Assembly: GCA_026418055.1 (NCBI GenBank)
Contig: JAOACB010000025.1
Location: forward strand, 1-35,177
Reading direction: 5' to 3'
DNA: 35,177 bases
Origin: Fimbriimonadales bacterium
GTDB taxonomy: Bacteria; Armatimonadota; Fimbriimonadia; Fimbriimonadales; Fimbriimonadaceae
The position numbers and the translations under genes are program-made. Of this stretch, positions 27,219-35,177 are shown piece after piece (positions within the stretch are counted from its first letter, which is position 1; every line of letters begins with the position of its first letter). The notes below the pieces were generated by a model. That model made no database searches. It saw only the letters and a list, made by a program, of their open reading frames with translations, and had not been told where the DNA came from.

Positions 27219-27252
27219 CTTGCCGTAGATGGGCCGTGCTCTCAGGATCCAC

Positions 27253-27272
27253 CCGGCAACGATGCCGGTTTT
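27253..27272 (+). terminator. Second intrinsic terminator between ferredoxin and lon
   Basis: CCGGCA-ACGA-TGCCGG followed directly by TTTT forms a compact rho-independent terminator 54 bases before the chosen lon start. With the preceding hairpin it isolates lon from upstream transcription. Confidence 0.6.
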
Positions 27273-27325
27273 CCCGTGTCGCGGCGGCGAACTCCGCGAA
27301 GCGGTGGTATCACGAGGTTGTGGCC

Positions 27326-29662
27326 GTGGCCGAACCGGGGAGAGCAACGGTGGCGACGGAACGTCGGAGGTATCCCGTCGTTCCGGTCCGCGACGCCGTG
27401 TACTTCCCGGGGCTGATCCACGCGCTGCACGTCGCCCGCTCGGCCTCGCGGCAGTCCCTCGAGCGCGCCCTCGAGGCCGGCCGCAGGATCGTGTGCGTGC
27501 TGCAGCGCAACCCTTCCGTGGAGGATCCGGAGCCTGAGGATCTCAGTCCGATCGGCACGCTGTGCGAGCTGCTCAGCGCCACGCGATTGCCCGACGGAAC
27601 GTACCGCGTGGCGCTCCGCGGGCTGGCGCGCGGTCGGATCGGGAGGCCGGCTCGCCGGCATGCGGGCTGGACCGCAGAGTTCGTCGCTCTTCCGGACCCG
27701 ATCGCGGCCACCGAGCGCGAGGAGGCTCTGGCCCGTGAGGTGCTGGAGGGGTTCTCGAGGCTGGTGGAGGAGGGCGGGCGCATCCCCCCGGAGTCGTTGG
27801 CCGCGGCTTCGGTGCAGGAATGCCCCAGCCGCCTGGGCTGGGTCGTGGCGCACCACCTGCCGCTCAAGGCTATCGAGAAGCAGGCGGTCTTGGAGTCGGA
27901 GAGCCTGTCGGAGAGGCTGGAGGCGGTTCTGCGGCTCATCCTGCGGGAGCAGCGGGTGCTGGCCTGTCGCTCGGAGATTTGGGACAGCATCCGCAAGGAG
28001 GCCACCGAGAGCCAGCGCGAGGCGATGCTCCGGGAGCAGCTCCGGGCCGTCCAAGAGCAGCTCCGCAGGATCGATGGGAGGCTCGACCCGCTCGAGGAGC
28101 TCCGCCGCTCGTTCGCAGACGAGGCCTATCCCGAGGCCGTCCGACGTCGGGCTGAAGAGGAGTTGGCGCGGCTCGAGCGGACGGGCGCCTTCACTCCGGA
28201 GGGATCCGCGTCGATCGGCTACCTCGAGTGGCTGCGCGCGCTGCCTTGGACGCGCAAGGCGCCGGCCCCACCGAGCCTACCGCAGGTTCGGGCGACGTTG
28301 GACGCGAGGCACTACGGGCTGGAGCGGCCGAAGCGCAGGGTGATCGAGCAGCTGGCGGTTCTGAGGCTCCGTCCCGATGCTCAGGGTCCTGTGCTCTGCT
28401 TCGTCGGTCCTCCGGGCGTGGGCAAGACCAGCCTAGCCCGAGCCGTGGCCGAAGCCATGGGCCGGCCGTTCGTTTCGGTGGCGCTCGGGGGCGTGCGGGA
28501 CGACGCGGAGATCCGTGGCCATCGCCGGACCTACGTGGGAGCCATGCCCGGGCGCATCGTGCAGGGCTTGCGCAACGCGGGCGTTCGCAATCCGGTGGTG
28601 TTGCTGGACGAGCTCGACAAGCTCGGTTTGGACGGAAGGGGAGACCCGGCTGGGGCTCTGCTGGAGGTGCTCGACCCGGCGCAGAACGGCGCGTTCCTCG
28701 ACCTTTACGTCGACCTCCCGATCGACCTGAGCGGGGCGTTCTTCATCGTCACGGCCAACCACGTCGAGAACCTCCCTAGGGCCCTGCGCGATCGGCTGGA
28801 GCCTGTGGAGTTCGAGAGCTACACTCCGGAGGAGCGGCTCGCCATGGCCCGGTCCCACTTGGTGCCGAAGGCGCTCGCCGAGGCTGGCCTGTCTCCGGAC
28901 GCGGCGTCCTGGAGCGAGGAGGCGATCCGGTGCGCCGTGGAGGAGTTCGAACCGGAGCCGGGGGTGCGTTCGCTGTATCGTCGGATCGCCGCCGTGTGCC
29001 GATGGGCCGCGCTGCAACTGGTCGAGACGGGCCGGACGAGCCGCATCGGGCGTCGCGAGGTGCTCCAGGTCGTCGGCGCCGAGGAAGACCCGCTGCAGAG
29101 GAGCTGGCAGGGCGACCTGGTGGGAGTGGCGAACGCCTTGGTGGTGTCGGAACTCGGCGGGGCGGTGTTGCCGATCGAGGTGGCGCTCGTGGAGGCTTCC
29201 GGCGCCTCGCCGAGCCTCTCGCTGACGGGCAATCTCGGCTCCATCATGCGCGAGAGCGCCCAGACGGCGTTCACGTACGTGCGCAGCATCCGCGGCAGAC
29301 TCGGCATTGCGCATCCGCTCCAGATGGACGTGCACGTGCACGCCCAGGAGGGCGGCGTGCCAAAGGATGGCCCGAGCGCGGGACTCGCCATCGCCGTGGC
29401 CCTGGCCTCGGCGTGGACCGGTCGACAAGTGCCCGCCGATACGGCCTGGACCGGAGAGCTGACTTTGAGGGGTCGGGTGTTGCCGGTCGGGGGCCTGAGG
29501 GAGAAGCTGCTGGCTGTGCAGAGGGCGGGGCTGCGCCGAGCGGTGGTGCCGGAGGGAAACCGGGCTCAGGTCGAACGGTTGCCAGAGAGCCTGCTCGCGG
29601 CGTTGGAGATCGTGTGCGTCAGCGACGCCTCGCAGGCCATAAAGCTGCTTCTCGAAGGCTGA
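27326..29662 (+). CDS. lon: ATP-dependent protease Lon
   Basis: A 778-residue soluble AAA+ protease that unfolds and degrades damaged and regulatory proteins. The N-terminal substrate domain opens RRYPVVPVRDAVYFPG, followed by a long coiled-coil. The ATPase has Walker A GPPGVGKT (from residue 361) and Walker B VVLLDELDKL. The protease domain has GELTLRGRVLPVGG and the Ser-Lys dyad S684 (KDGPSAG) and K727 (REKLLAV). Their spacing of 43 equals that of E. coli Lon (S679/K722). GTG 27326 has GAGG 8 bases upstream; GTG 27350, with GGGGAG 7 bases upstream, is an equal alternative and only 8 residues shorter. It sits upstream of envelope genes and, further on, a proteasome-like subunit. Confidence 0.95.
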   Translation: MAEPGRATVATERRRYPVVPVRDAVYFPGLIHALHVARSASRQSLERALEAGRRIVCVLQRNPSVEDPEPEDLSPIGTLCELLSATRLPDGTYRVALRGLARGRIGRPARRHAGWTAEFVALPDPIAATEREEALAREVLEGFSRLVEEGGRIPPESLAAASVQECPSRLGWVVAHHLPLKAIEKQAVLESESLSERLEAVLRLILREQRVLACRSEIWDSIRKEATESQREAMLREQLRAVQEQLRRIDGRLDPLEELRRSFADEAYPEAVRRRAEEELARLERTGAFTPEGSASIGYLEWLRALPWTRKAPAPPSLPQVRATLDARHYGLERPKRRVIEQLAVLRLRPDAQGPVLCFVGPPGVGKTSLARAVAEAMGRPFVSVALGGVRDDAEIRGHRRTYVGAMPGRIVQGLRNAGVRNPVVLLDELDKLGLDGRGDPAGALLEVLDPAQNGAFLDLYVDLPIDLSGAFFIVTANHVENLPRALRDRLEPVEFESYTPEERLAMARSHLVPKALAEAGLSPDAASWSEEAIRCAVEEFEPEPGVRSLYRRIAAVCRWAALQLVETGRTSRIGRREVLQVVGAEEDPLQRSWQGDLVGVANALVVSELGGAVLPIEVALVEASGASPSLSLTGNLGSIMRESAQTAFTYVRSIRGRLGIAHPLQMDVHVHAQEGGVPKDGPSAGLAIAVALASAWTGRQVPADTAWTGELTLRGRVLPVGGLREKLLAVQRAGLRRAVVPEGNRAQVERLPESLLAALEIVCVSDASQAIKLLLEG

Positions 29663-29753
29663 GGGCCCATGGCGCATCTTTGGCGGAGTGGGGCGGGAAA
29701 GGCGAAACCTCCACCCGCCGCAACAGTCCAATGGACAGGAGCGTGAGTGGACG

Positions 29754-30326
29754 ATGAGGGGTTGGTTGAGAAAGGTGGCGGCCCTGGGAGCGCTGGCTTT
29801 CGCTACCGCCTTCGCCGACGTTCCAACGGAAACGATGCGGGTGGGCCAATCGGTTGCCGACGTCCTGTCTGCCGCGGCCGGGACCCAGCACGCGATCGTG
29901 GCCGAAGGCTTGCTGCGCGCTCCCTTGCAGAAGGACAATCTGGCTTCCGCCCTGCTGTATCCCACCGACGAGGTGGTGGTCGTGGCCCTGAAGGGATCGC
30001 AGGTGCGGCAGGCTTTCGAGCGAGCCGCTTCGCTGTATCCCCGCCCGAATCCCAGCTTCCTGTACACCGCGGGGTTCGAGGTGGTGGTCGACCCAACGAA
30101 GGAGCCGGGCGCCAGGATCGTCTCGGTGACCGCGGCGGGAGCCAAGCTGGAGGAGGACCGGACCTATGAGATCGCCATGCCGTCCTCCCTCGGTCGCGGC
30201 GGTCTGGGATACTTCAAGGTATGGGACAGGTCCAAGATCGTGCGCGCGGTGCCGGGAGTGACGGTCGAAGACGTTATGAAGGGAAAGCCCGTCGGATCCT
30301 CCGCGCCGCGCTGGTCGGAGCGCTGA
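29754..30326 (+). CDS. Exported stand-alone 5'-nucleotidase C-terminal domain protein
   Basis: A 190-residue protein with a signal peptide (MRGWLRKVAALGALAFATAFA) followed only by the domain normally found at the C-terminus of secreted 5'-nucleotidases/UshA: VVVVALKGSQVRQAFERA, then PSFLYTAGFEVVVDPTKEPGARIVSV, KLEEDRTYEIAMPSSLGRGGLGYFKVW. In UshA this domain binds the nucleotide base; the metal-bearing catalytic domain is absent, so it probably binds a nucleotide-like ligand or is a remnant. ATG 29754 is chosen because it opens the signal peptide; AGGAG lies about 12 bases upstream. Its last 106 bases overlap the next frame, and a GGGAAAG heptamer lies in the overlap. Confidence 0.75.
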   Translation: MRGWLRKVAALGALAFATAFADVPTETMRVGQSVADVLSAAAGTQHAIVAEGLLRAPLQKDNLASALLYPTDEVVVVALKGSQVRQAFERAASLYPRPNPSFLYTAGFEVVVDPTKEPGARIVSVTAAGAKLEEDRTYEIAMPSSLGRGGLGYFKVWDRSKIVRAVPGVTVEDVMKGKPVGSSAPRWSER

Positions 30327-31222
30327 TCGCCGGATCGGTCCCGGGTCTTGCGCAGGGATTGCCCGCCACGCTCTTCGACGAGCGGCTGGCGTGGGAACAC
30401 TTGCTCAAGCAGGTCTCCTTCGGTCCGAGAGTGCCCGGCACGGAGGCCCACCGGAAGTGCGCCGAGTGGCTGCTCGCGGAGCTGAGGAAGACCTGCGAGA
30501 ACGTGCGCTTCCAGCCCTTCGAGCACCGCTGGTCGGTGGACGGCAGAACCTACCGCATGGCGAACCTGCTCGCGGAGCAGAACTGGAAGGAGGCCAAGGT
30601 GCGCGTGGTGGTGCTGGCACACTGGGACACGAGGCCATACGCCGACCAAGACCCAGACCCTGCGAACCGCACCAAGCCCGTGCTGGGGGCCAACGATGGC
30701 GCGAGCGGGGTGGCGGTGATCCTCGAGCTCGCCCGCGTGCTGCAGGGCAGGCTGAAGGACGTCGGGGTGCTCTACCTGCTCACGGACGGGGAGGACCTCG
30801 GCCCCGACATCGGGGAAATGCTGCTGGGGGCGCGCCACTTCGCAAGGAACCTGCCGTCTCCGAGGCCGGACTACGGCATTCTGCTGGACATGGTGGGGGA
30901 CAAGGACCTCCGCATCCCGATGGAACGGTACTCCTTCCAGCAGGCGCCTTGGCTGTTGCGCGAGCTGTACGACCTCGCCGCCAGGGCCGGCATGGGAAGG
31001 ACGTTTCCCAAGGAGCTGGGGCAATGGATCATCGACGACCACGTGCCTCTCAATGAAGCCGGCATCCCCACCGTCGACCTGATCGACTTCACTTACCAGC
31101 CTTGGCACACCGTGCGGGACACGCCCGAGCAGTGTTCCCCCGCCTCGCTGGGCAAGGTGGGCCGGCTGATGGAGCTTTGGCTTCTGCGAGAGCCGGCCTA
31201 TCGCCCTCCCCGCAACCGGTAG
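30221..31222 (+). CDS. M28-family zinc enzyme, glutaminyl-peptide cyclotransferase-like, exported
   Basis: A 333-residue protein. The M28 fold carries AHWDTRPYAD (H134, D136), GANDGASG (D159), LTDGEDLG (E191/D192), LLDMVGDKDL (D223) and PWHTVRDTPEQCSP (H296). The LDMVGDKD and PWHT...D stretches are those of animal-type glutaminyl cyclases and their bacterial relatives, which cyclise N-terminal Gln to pyroglutamate; aminopeptidase activity is the alternative. A hydrophobic export segment (AALVGALIAGSVPGLAQG) lies at about 30-47. ATG 30221 is the only ordinary start before it, but gives an odd 29-residue charged leader and a 106-base overlap with the preceding gene. A -1 frameshift at 30281-30287, or a one-base sequence error after ATG 30276, would explain it better. 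Confidence 0.8.
   Translation: MGQVQDRARGAGSDGRRRYEGKARRILRAALVGALIAGSVPGLAQGLPATLFDERLAWEHLLKQVSFGPRVPGTEAHRKCAEWLLAELRKTCENVRFQPFEHRWSVDGRTYRMANLLAEQNWKEAKVRVVVLAHWDTRPYADQDPDPANRTKPVLGANDGASGVAVILELARVLQGRLKDVGVLYLLTDGEDLGPDIGEMLLGARHFARNLPSPRPDYGILLDMVGDKDLRIPMERYSFQQAPWLLRELYDLAARAGMGRTFPKELGQWIIDDHVPLNEAGIPTVDLIDFTYQPWHTVRDTPEQCSPASLGKVGRLMELWLLREPAYRPPRNR
30281..30287 (+). other. GGGAAAG heptamer in frame for -1 slippage
   Basis: In the 5'-nucleotidase-domain gene the codons read G-GGA-AAG, the classic X-XXY-YYZ form. A -1 slip moves the ribosome exactly into the M28 frame. It lies within the 106-base overlap of the two genes. This could be chance. Confidence 0.3.
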
Positions 31223-31246
31223 CCAGCCGCGGCGTAGGAAGAAATC

Positions 31247-31900
31247 ATGGTCACGCCGTTCGACTGGCAGGAAAGCATCGGGCACCGTTCGCAATACGTC
31301 GAGAACAAGCTGGCCCATGGACTGCCGGTCGTCGCGGCCTCGGTGGCCGAAGGCGTTCTGTTGGTCGCATGGCGCCGCAACGCGCGCAAGGTCTTCGAGA
31401 TCTACGACCGCTTGGCGATGGCCGCGATCGGTCAGCAGTCCGACGTGGAGGCGTTGCGCACCGCCGCGGTGGAGTTCGCGCACCGGGAGGGGTACTCGCG
31501 GAGCGAGAGCGACGTGACGATCGAGCGCGTAGCCGGCGCGCTGAGCCAACCGGTGAAGCGCGCGTTCGGCGATCTCACCGTCGCTCCGTTCGTGGTGAGG
31601 GCGCTCTTCGCGCAGGTGGGGTCGGCCCCGAAGGACGACCGCTTGGTGGTTCTCGGCTTCGACGGCGATTACGGATACCGGGAGGGGTTCGCGGCTCTGG
31701 CTGGCGACGCCGAGACGGAAGAGGCGTTGATCCGCCGCATGGAGGAGCGGGACTGGTCGTCTGCAGCGCCGAGCGAGGCGCTGGGGGCGTTGCGGTCGCT
31801 CTGGGAGCCGGGCGAGAAGCAGGCATCGGGAGTCCGCGTGGAGGCGGCGCTGCTTCGGCGAACCGACGACACCGATCGCAGGCTCCAACCTTTGGATTAG
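31247..31900 (+). CDS. Proteasome alpha-type (20S, Ntn-fold) subunit-like protein
   Basis: A 217-residue protein with the pattern of actinobacterial-type PrcA: an N-terminal helix (ESIGHRSQYVENKLAHG), then PVVAASVAEGVLLVAWRRNARKVFEIYDRLAMAAIGQQSDVEALRTAAVEFAHREGY and SESDVTIERVAGALS, a close parallel to the KxSELYDRxGFAxxG...LRxxGxxFAxxxGY...RDVT run of PrcA. It keeps the full N-terminal region and has no processed threonine, so it is alpha-type and non-catalytic, forming the gate ring of a 20S particle. AGGAAG precedes the ATG. The genes that usually accompany it (beta subunit, Mpa/ARC ATPase, Pup or UBact, PafA/Dop) are not within this window: upstream is the M28 enzyme and downstream a GGDEF/EAL protein. 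A partner elsewhere, or a self-standing role, is possible. Confidence 0.8.
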   Translation: MVTPFDWQESIGHRSQYVENKLAHGLPVVAASVAEGVLLVAWRRNARKVFEIYDRLAMAAIGQQSDVEALRTAAVEFAHREGYSRSESDVTIERVAGALSQPVKRAFGDLTVAPFVVRALFAQVGSAPKDDRLVVLGFDGDYGYREGFAALAGDAETEEALIRRMEERDWSSAAPSEALGALRSLWEPGEKQASGVRVEAALLRRTDDTDRRLQPLD

Positions 31901-31961
31901 ACGCGTCGTCTCGAATGGGTTCGTCCGTCCCTTGATGCAAGAGGGACCTCTGGAGTTGCCG

Positions 31962-34900
31962 ATGCCGGTTGCCCGTCCAAAGGAGAGCCAAGCGAGCAGG
32001 AGTGGCTCGGAGACAGCCGCGCGCGCCGTTGGCCTGATTCTGCTCGTTGTGTGCGCATGGGCGCGGGTGGGTTTCTCCGGCGCGGTGTTCGACCCTACGC
32101 TCGGGCTGGCGATCGTTCTGCAAGGCAGGGGCGGCGCAGCGCGGTTTCTGCTGGTGTGGGGAGCGATGGCGCTCGGATTGGCGCTGGGGGGAGCCCCCGC
32201 CCTCTCCGTGCTGACCGGCGCCTCGGTGCTCGCGCTCGCAGCCCGGTTCGGTCGCTGGTTGCTGTCGAGGCACACCGCGCTCCAGCGTCCGTTCCAGAAC
32301 GTCGGAGAGGTGGTCTCCGCGGCCTTGCTCGTGGCTTTGCCCACCACCGCGGTGGCGATGCTGGACGGATGGGGGAGGGACTGGAGCACGCTGATCGTCG
32401 ACGCTGTAAGAACTGCTCTGGGGGTGCTCGGGGTGCTGCCGCTGGTCATGGCCAGGCGCGAGTGGTCGTCGGCGAAGGACCTGCGGCGCGTGGCTCTCGG
32501 TGCCGTCGCCGCATCGCTGGTGGTGGTGGGCTCCAACGAACTCGCATCGGTCTCTCCGGCGGCGAGCATGGCGGCCGTCACGCTGTTGCTGCCCATCGCC
32601 ATCCTGGTCGCTTCCTGGGCTGGCGGATTCGGCGCGTCGCTGATCTTTGCGACGGTGCTGATCGTGGCGAGCGCCACCGGGATTCCTCTGCGGATCGCCC
32701 GGCACTCCGGGGCTCCCGACTGGATGGATCACGCCGCGCTCATGCTGGAGTTGGGCCTCATCGGCCTCGTGGCGCAGGCTTTGGCGGCCGCCAACGCAGG
32801 CAGAGCCCTCAGCGAGAGACGCCTGCGCGAGAGCGAGCAGCGCCTCGCTCGCGCCGCCGAGCTGAGCCATCTGGGGTACTGGGAGCTGCAGCTCGATACC
32901 GGCAAGCTCACTTGGTCCGCCGGCGCCGAGAAGGTTCTGGGGCCGTGCCGGGACGAAGATGCTGGCGGCCTCAGCTGGCTGTTGTCGCGCCTGAAGTCGG
33001 CGGACGCGAGGAGCCTCGAGCTCGCCTTGGCGGATGCGATCGCCGGCAAGCAACCGTTCGAGGTGCTGTTCGGTTTCGTCGCCTTGTCGGGAGAGGAGCG
33101 CACCGCGGTGTTGCGGGGGGAGCCGAGGCTGGACTGGAGGGGAGAGGTCGAGGCTCTGACCGGGTCCTTGCAGGACGTCACCGACCAGCTGAGGCAGGAA
33201 GAGGCTCTGCGGGCCAGCCGCGAGAGGATCTCGAGCATCTTGGAGACGATGTCGGACGCTGTGGTGTCGCTGTCACCGGACCTGAAGTCGGTGCTGCACG
33301 CCAACCACGCCGTCCGGCGGATCCTTGGCCTGTCGCCGGAGGCTCTCGCGGCGGATCCCCGTTGGCTGACCGCCGCGTTGGAGGCAAACGGGGCGTCGGA
33401 GGGTGGGTTCTGGGAAACGCTCCTGGAGTCCGGGGAGGCGTCTGCGGTCCGAAGGGTTGCCTGCCCCGACGGCAGGTCGCGCTGGCTGAGGGTCGCGGCG
33501 AGGGTGTTCCGCTCGGTCGCGGGGGAACCGTTGCGCGTCGACCTGATCCTGACCGACGTCACCAGGGAGCGGGAGGCCACGGCCGCTCTGGAGCTCTCGG
33601 AGAGGCGCTATCGAAGGCTGTTCGAGACGATGAACCAGGGGGTGCTGTACCTCTCCGAGGATGGGCGGATCGTGAGGGTGAACGGGGCAGCCTGCGCGGT
33701 CCTGGGCGTGGCGGCGGATCGGTTGCAGGGAGAGACCCTCGGGGCGGCTCTACGGCCGGTCGACGAGAGCCGCTCGCCGATCCCGGACGAGGACCTGCCC
33801 CCTCAGGTGGATGGCGGAAGGACCTCCGGTTCGGCGCTGATCGGCGCCTACAACAGGAAGCAGTATGACCACCGCTGGGTGGTGCTCGATTGGTTCCGAG
33901 AGTCCGGCGAGCTGCCCGATGGGGCTAGGTACCAGGTGATCCTGACGGACATCACCAAGCTGAAGCGCCTGCAGGACGAGCTGGAGCGCATGGCCTACAC
34001 CGATCCTCTCACGGGTCTGCCCAACCTGGGAATGTTCCGCGACCGTCTGGAACACACGCTGCGCAACGCGGAGAGGTACGGCGACACCGTGGGCGTTCTG
34101 TTCGTGGACCTCGACCTGTTCAAGCAGGTCAACGACCACTACGGGCACCACGTGGGGGACGAGCTGCTCAAGGAGGTGGCCCAGCGCCTGAAGCAGACCG
34201 TGCGGCGCTCCGACACGGTGGCCCGACTCGGTGGCGACGAGTTCGTGATCCTGCTGTCGAAGATCAAGAGTCCTTCGGACGTGGACCTTGTGGCGACCAA
34301 GATCCTTGCCGCCTTCGAGAGCTCGTTTCATCCCGGAGGCGTGGAGCTGCACTGTAGCTGCAGCGTCGGTTCGGCTGTGTACTCGGGTGGGGAGCGATCG
34401 GCCGCCGACCTTGTGGCGCGCGCCGACGAAGCCATGTACTCGGCGAAAGCCGCCGGCCGCTCCGGCTATCGCCGCGCCGCCGCCATGGAGTCCGCTGTCT
34501 TGGAGCTCTCGCTCGAGGCGGAGTTGAGAACCTCCCTGGCGTCGGGGCAGATTCTGCCGCACTTCCAACCTGTGGTCGATGTGGGTTCTCTGCGCGTGAT
34601 CGGCGCGGAGGCTCTGGCCCGCTGGCAGCACCCGGTCCATGGGTTGCTGGAGGCGGGTAAGTTCGTTCCCATCGCCGAGAGGACTGGCCTCATCGTCCCG
34701 CTCGGCTTGGCTGTGATCGGTGCGGCGCTGCGGGAGGCGGCGGCTTGGGTGCATCGGCATCCGGGATTCCGCCTCGCCGTCAACGTCAGCCCTCGGCAGC
34801 TCGCGGCCCCGGGCTTCCTCGAGGCCCTGGAGCGGCTTCTGCGGCAGACGTCCTTTCCTGCGGAGGCGCTGGACCTGGAGGTCACCGAGACCGGCTCGCT

Positions 34901-35177
34901 CGATCCGCAGGACCTCGTGATCGGCGCCCTGCACGGCTCGCGAAGCTTGGGTTGCAGGGTCGTTCTCGACGATTTAGGCGTGGGGCACTCCACGCTCGGG
35001 CACGTCCTATCGCTGCCGGTGGACGGAGTGAAGATCGATCGGTGCTTCGCTCGCCACCTGTGCAACGGGAAGCGGTACGTCGAACTGCTGGCGGGGTTGT
35101 TGGAAGTCTTCGACCGCTTCGGTCTTCGAACCGTGGTGGAGGGGGTGGAGAACCTGGAGCAGTGGAAGGTCCTGCGC
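31962..35177 (+). CDS. Membrane-bound PAS/GGDEF/EAL cyclic-di-GMP enzyme (partial at the right edge)
   Basis: At least 1072 residues, running off the window. Residues 20 to about 280 are a multi-helix sensor resembling MASE1. Three PAS-like domains follow (about 303-420, 423-545, 548-670). The diguanylate cyclase domain begins YTDPLTGLPN at about 679 and has an intact GGDEF at 757-761 with an RxxD inhibitory site (RRSD) five residues before it. The EAL domain has EALAR from E883, VNVSPRQ, EVTET and VKID, with DDLGVGHST in place of the common DDFGTGYSS. Both synthesis and breakdown of cyclic-di-GMP look possible; which dominates is unknown. ATG 31962 has GGAG 6 bases upstream and is preferred to ATG 31935. 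It adds a third cyclic-di-GMP protein to the window. Confidence 0.92.
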   Translation, partial: MPVARPKESQASRSGSETAARAVGLILLVVCAWARVGFSGAVFDPTLGLAIVLQGRGGAARFLLVWGAMALGLALGGAPALSVLTGASVLALAARFGRWLLSRHTALQRPFQNVGEVVSAALLVALPTTAVAMLDGWGRDWSTLIVDAVRTALGVLGVLPLVMARREWSSAKDLRRVALGAVAASLVVVGSNELASVSPAASMAAVTLLLPIAILVASWAGGFGASLIFATVLIVASATGIPLRIARHSGAPDWMDHAALMLELGLIGLVAQALAAANAGRALSERRLRESEQRLARAAELSHLGYWELQLDTGKLTWSAGAEKVLGPCRDEDAGGLSWLLSRLKSADARSLELALADAIAGKQPFEVLFGFVALSGEERTAVLRGEPRLDWRGEVEALTGSLQDVTDQLRQEEALRASRERISSILETMSDAVVSLSPDLKSVLHANHAVRRILGLSPEALAADPRWLTAALEANGASEGGFWETLLESGEASAVRRVACPDGRSRWLRVAARVFRSVAGEPLRVDLILTDVTREREATAALELSERRYRRLFETMNQGVLYLSEDGRIVRVNGAACAVLGVAADRLQGETLGAALRPVDESRSPIPDEDLPPQVDGGRTSGSALIGAYNRKQYDHRWVVLDWFRESGELPDGARYQVILTDITKLKRLQDELERMAYTDPLTGLPNLGMFRDRLEHTLRNAERYGDTVGVLFVDLDLFKQVNDHYGHHVGDELLKEVAQRLKQTVRRSDTVARLGGDEFVILLSKIKSPSDVDLVATKILAAFESSFHPGGVELHCSCSVGSAVYSGGERSAADLVARADEAMYSAKAAGRSGYRRAAAMESAVLELSLEAELRTSLASGQILPHFQPVVDVGSLRVIGAEALARWQHPVHGLLEAGKFVPIAERTGLIVPLGLAVIGAALREAAAWVHRHPGFRLAVNVSPRQLAAPGFLEALERLLRQTSFPAEALDLEVTETGSLDPQDLVIGALHGSRSLGCRVVLDDLGVGHSTLGHVLSLPVDGVKIDRCFARHLCNGKRYVELLAGLLEVFDRFGLRTVVEGVENLEQWKVLR

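Follow-up and report, generated by a model that had tools for sequence, protein, structure and literature searches.

The gene at positions 31247 to 31900 (forward strand) of the window, the whole 35,177-nucleotide stretch of DNA analyzed here, encodes an intact and conserved 20S proteasome alpha subunit, designated prcA. It is almost certainly the single alpha subunit of a UBact-type 20S proteasome whose genes are dispersed in the genome of this uncultured Fimbriimonadaceae bacterium (Armatimonadota). The protein is ordinary; it is the placement of its gene that is unusual, and this placement is found throughout the clade.

The reading frame of 217 residues starts with the ATG at 31247, its stop codon ends at 31900, and an AGGAAG motif resembling a ribosome-binding site was read directly from the sequence just 5' of the ATG (31237 to 31246, forward strand). 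The product scored 26.9 bits with the Pfam Proteasome family (PF00227; gathering cutoff, 22.4) and matched the model for bacterial 20S alpha subunits (TIGR03691) over profile positions 13 to 214 of 229 with an E value of 1.4e-26. The corresponding score of 93 bits lies under the curated cutoff of 139 bits, which is reached by 0 of 113 genomes of the class Fimbriimonadia, and for this reason the protein was not filed as the actinobacterial equivalog. The curated NCBIfam cutoffs for alpha, beta, Dop, PafA, and the ATPase were all above the scores obtained in the source genome, those for alpha and the ATPase being reached by no genome of the class. The best match in the PDB was Rhodococcus PrcA (1q5q; E value, 8.7e-17; residues 11 to 195), the best solved relatives were the Rhodococcus and Mycobacterium PrcA proteins, aligned over nearly its full length, and the alignment with the family profile spanned profile positions 9 to 225. 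A sequence-only reading of this DNA had proposed an alpha-type proteasome subunit, which is borne out by the PF00227 score, the PDB match, and the modeled H0 helix. It had also placed the close likeness to PrcA in the first 120 residues; the likeness is real, but the limit was set too short, since the match to 1q5q runs from residue 11 to residue 195.

The AlphaFold model of the single chain (pLDDT 95.4, pTM 0.90) predicts an alpha-type fold, in which an H0 helix formed by residues 4 to 22 (pLDDT 91 to 96) lies ahead of the first strand and is followed by the Ntn sandwich. The closest structure was a Mycobacterium alpha chain (VIA-align Z 27.0, rmsd 1.9 over 200 residues), a Rhodococcus alpha chain was likewise among the closest, and the Foldseek results were concordant. 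After the H0 helix the protein reads LPVVAAS where PrcB reads HG-TTVLA, and there is no processed N-terminal catalytic threonine. From the predicted alpha-type fold, the alpha chains found as closest structures, and the lack of this threonine, it was concluded that the product is a noncatalytic alpha subunit. An identity as HslV or Anbu was rejected, as no HslV profile was among the matches of the protein and Thr1 was missing. In an alignment of 37 orthologs, the invariant residues included K48 (37/37), E51, Y53, and D54. By profile alignment, K48 corresponds to K52 of Mycobacterium tuberculosis, the pocket lysine that receives the C terminus of the activator.

The source genome is a fragmented draft of 2.89 Mb in 135 contigs and is 96.8% complete. 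A whole-genome search returned two Proteasome-family genes only, prcA (contig C52) and prcB (C120). The product of prcB reads HG-TTVLALRFDGGVLVLADRRATAGNLIMFDQAEK, and direct reading showed that the catalytic Thr1, Asp17, and Lys33 are kept; the catalytic beta partner is therefore encoded in the same genome as prcA. No second alpha gene and no second prcBA operon, which would make prcA an ordinary duplicate, was found when the genome was searched with PF00227, TIGR03691, and the PrcA sequence as a query. Several relatives (e.g., G084:C94:26594-27115, and L010) carry a further Proteasome-family gene of approximately 180 to 200 codons, a putative HslV, which is absent from the source genome. On C120, ubact and dop are tightly packed beside prcB, and the PrcB and Dop profiles also match on this contig. 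UBact is 59 residues long, has the C-terminal end RQRSGQ (SGQ), and scored 75 bits with NF033388 (cutoff, 35). Two PF03136 genes, one on C53 and one on C120, constitute the PafA/Dop pair. For the C53 gene the PafA and Dop profiles were nearly tied (280 and 277 bits), and its assignment as PafA was instead deduced from synteny with L121: it is the counterpart, with 56% identity, of the gene that follows prcA in G111, a genome in which dop sits upstream of ubact. The proteasomal ATPase, of the ARC/Mpa type, is encoded on C96 (TIGR03689; E value, 5e-129; 431 bits, under the cutoff of 505). This contig starts with agatgtgtataagagacag (L101:1-19), which resembles what is left of a sequencing adapter (transposon end).

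The UBact-proteasome genes of the source genome are spread over four contigs; a single locus is typical of such systems but is not required for function. The remark in the sequence-only reading that the usual neighbors are missing was correct, as no beta, ATPase, tag, or ligase gene was found in the window from 22 kb on and all were placed on other contigs. Its suggestion that prcA might belong to a UBact system with scattered parts was also upheld by the finding of UBact, Dop, PrcB, PafA, and the ATPase elsewhere in the genome. All of these genes, prcA included, are single-copy and conserved. UBact-linked proteasomes in Armatimonadota, which it had mentioned, were already known.

The separation of prcA from prcB is not peculiar to the source genome but goes back to a single old relocation common to the family. 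Armatimonadota outside Fimbriimonadaceae have the classical order mpa-dop-ubact-prcB-prcA-pafA or part of it: the full order was found in several genomes (and in one Acetothermia genome), dop-ubact-prcB-prcA-pafA in G111 (family f4), dop-ubact-prcB-prcA in family f3, and prcB-prcA in family f2. Within Fimbriimonadaceae, dop-ubact-prcB remain together, prcA, pafA, and the ATPase gene lie elsewhere, and prcA adjoins prcB in none of the loci examined. A draft-assembly artifact was ruled out as the cause, because well-assembled relatives carry both genes on one contig at distances of 18 kb to 1.9 Mb (18 kb in G073, the least; 332 kb in G085; 334 kb in G088; 371 kb in G070; 396 kb in G061; about 600 kb in G054; 643 kb in G012; about 920 kb in G035; 1.05 Mb in G071; and 1.9 Mb in G015). 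A maximum-likelihood tree covered 81 alpha proteins, of which 25 are linked to prcB and 56 are unlinked. On it, linkage changed exactly once, on a branch with support of 100/99, and the unlinked entries were either annotated as Fimbriimonadaceae or bore older or wrong names within the same clade. prcA left the prcB operon once, long ago, at the base of Fimbriimonadaceae, and has stayed apart. One sequence titled Methanoregulaceae archaeon (L157, JADZEW010000018.1) contains a Fimbriimonadaceae-type prcA nearly identical to that of L163 and is probably from a misnamed or contaminated bin.

In its present location prcA follows three genes on the same strand, all of which had been named in the sequence-only reading and were confirmed by profiles. 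These encode a Lon protease (27236 to 29662, forward strand; TIGR00763 above cutoff), a stand-alone 5'-nucleotidase C-terminal domain protein (29688 to 30326, forward strand; PF02872, E value 1.8e-19), and an M28 family peptidase (30221 to 31222, forward strand; PF04389, E value 2.1e-29). Downstream, a GGDEF-EAL-PAS protein gene (31932 to 35177, forward strand) runs off the contig. The Lon gene adjoins prcA in the same genus only, and the GGDEF-EAL-PAS gene is common mainly to the nearest relatives. The other two are recurrent new neighbors: 23 of the 56 unlinked loci, scattered over the clade, have the 5'-nucleotidase-domain gene upstream of prcA, and in 13 of those 23 the M28 gene lies between them. 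The simplest reading is one relocation beside a 5'-nucleotidase-domain gene, followed by repeated rearrangement. The gap of 24 bp after the M28 gene makes it probable that prcA is cotranscribed with its new neighbors; a promoter and terminator scan of 29600 to 32100 gave no match, such a scan being uninformative at this G+C content.

Across the class, prcA was found in 97 to 98 of the 113 genomes, with one copy in each, and it was retained in 83/88 of those that are near complete. UBact was detected in 100, PF03136 in 109, and the ATPase in 104 of the 113, and the presence and absence of alpha and UBact nearly coincide. In two genomes of genus g25 (G068 and G069; 1.5 Mb, 97% complete), alpha, beta, UBact, PafA/Dop, and the ATPase have all been lost. 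The gene is under purifying selection: compared with the nearest relative, G084, the product is 70% identical, with a dN of 0.27, a dS of 0.97, and a dN/dS of about 0.28. The corresponding dN and dS values were 0.10 and 0.57 for prcB and 0.06 and 0.82 for ubact. A hint of faster alpha divergence relative to beta where the genes are separated was given by the median ratio of alpha to beta divergence (comparison of L099, L202, and L103-L117), which was 1.85 for unlinked and 1.34 for linked genes, the unlinked value coming from just six genomes that are not independent.

The C terminus of the ATPase was compared with that of actinobacterial Mpa, which uses GQYL at its C terminus, with tyrosine as the penultimate residue, for docking (PMC8755798). 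The ATPase of the source genome (L101:1033-2688, reverse strand) ends in -NTVI. Among 30 Fimbriimonadia ATPases, this one included, the penultimate residue was V in 19, I in 11, and Y in 0, and a penultimate tyrosine was likewise found in 0/10 ATPases from outside the family (tails read from L101, L205-L234, and L174-L200). The tails of the group end in an aliphatic pair, V or I and then mostly I, V, or M. Since the penultimate tyrosine is missing, yet the pocket lysine of alpha is invariant, this group seems, judging from these tails, to use a docking signal of a different chemical nature. We tentatively suggest, while rating it somewhat short of probable, that the Armatimonadota ATPase docks via its terminal aliphatic pair (usually -VI, -II, or -IV), which would replace GQYL/HbYX with the pocket lysine kept, and that in Fimbriimonadaceae alpha is also expressed apart from beta, ring stoichiometry being set without a shared operon.

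By homology, we infer the following scheme for assembly, gating, tagging, and degradation. The barrel would be an alpha7-beta7-beta7-alpha7 assembly, in which PrcB from C120 is flanked on either side by an outer ring of seven PrcA subunits, and the alpha ring would gate the chamber and receive the ATPase from C96. PafA (C53) would tag proteins with UBact and Dop (C120) could untag them, while the ATPase would unfold the UBact-tagged proteins and feed them into the barrel. The sequence-only reading had alternatively raised a paralog forming its own ring. Such an alpha protein, with a separate job outside the UBact system, would fit the location of prcA at a separate locus beside unrelated genes and the higher alpha/beta divergence ratio of the unlinked family. 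It was deemed highly improbable, as prcA is the sole alpha gene in the genome, one alpha is found per genome throughout the class, the other Proteasome-fold gene here is the catalytic beta, alpha and UBact are present or missing nearly in step across the class, and the linked and unlinked alphas are orthologs with a single split on the tree. Just as improbable is a relic in decay, that is, a proteasome on its way out with a displaced and nonfunctional alpha subunit. The loss of the entire system from the two reduced 1.5-Mb relatives is what would be expected of this, but the reading frame is intact, residues are invariant over 37 sequences, and both the dN/dS and the retention of prcA in near-complete genomes speak against it; a pseudogene was ruled out by the intact frame and the dN/dS.

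A third proposal would add to the dispersed UBact proteasome rather than replace it, namely that the 5'-nucleotidase-domain protein and the M28 peptidase are functional partners coexpressed with prcA, for instance in finishing the peptides released by the proteasome. The recurrence of the 5'-nucleotidase-domain gene, alone or together with M28, as the immediate upstream neighbor in many genera and the short gap between M28 and prcA are consistent with this. The neighbor is nevertheless missing in 33 of the 56 unlinked loci, common ancestry of the landing site accounts for the pattern without shared function, and proteins of both kinds are often exported and would then not share the cytoplasm with the proteasome. 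This addition is therefore considered unlikely, though less so than the separate ring or the relic. The preferred reading is still that of a single alpha subunit serving a UBact proteasome with dispersed genes.

With the PrcA proteins of M. tuberculosis and Rhodococcus, the present protein shares the alpha fold with H0 and the pocket lysine aligned with M. tuberculosis residue 52, at an identity of 26 to 29% with actinobacterial PrcA. The system as a whole resembles the actinobacterial Pup-proteasome in having a single alpha and a single catalytic beta, an ATPase, a PafA/Dop pair, and a small tag protein; it differs in that the tag is UBact instead of Pup, prcA does not adjoin prcB, and the tyrosine of GQYL is absent from the end of the ATPase. 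HslV and Anbu belong to the same Ntn-hydrolase superfamily (PF00227), but PrcA has an N-terminal alpha helix, does not carry a threonine at the N terminus, and is matched by alpha profiles rather than by those of HslV. The tag family (NF033388) and the gene set are those of the Gram-negative UBact proteasomes of Armatimonadetes, Nitrospirae, and Verrucomicrobia, from which the present case differs in the broken-up operon of Fimbriimonadaceae. The system is of a known kind, since alpha and beta sequences of Armatimonadetes were earlier reported to group with those of Nitrospirae and Verrucomicrobia in a Gram-negative cluster (PMC5666114). Outside Actinobacteria, proteasomes of bacteria are usually held to be sporadic, and Dop/PafA outside Actinobacteria and Nitrospirae have been described as very sporadic (PMC7947786), whereas almost the entire class studied here carries a complete UBact set. 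Pupylation loci have been described as rigidly conserved in their gene order (PMC3511204); in Fimbriimonadaceae, proteasome parts are missed by neighborhood searches. What the present case adds is the near universality of the gene set in the class and the splitting of alpha from beta, once, by one family, which keeps a working-looking set and so offers a natural setting in which to ask how the two subunits are matched when no operon joins their genes.
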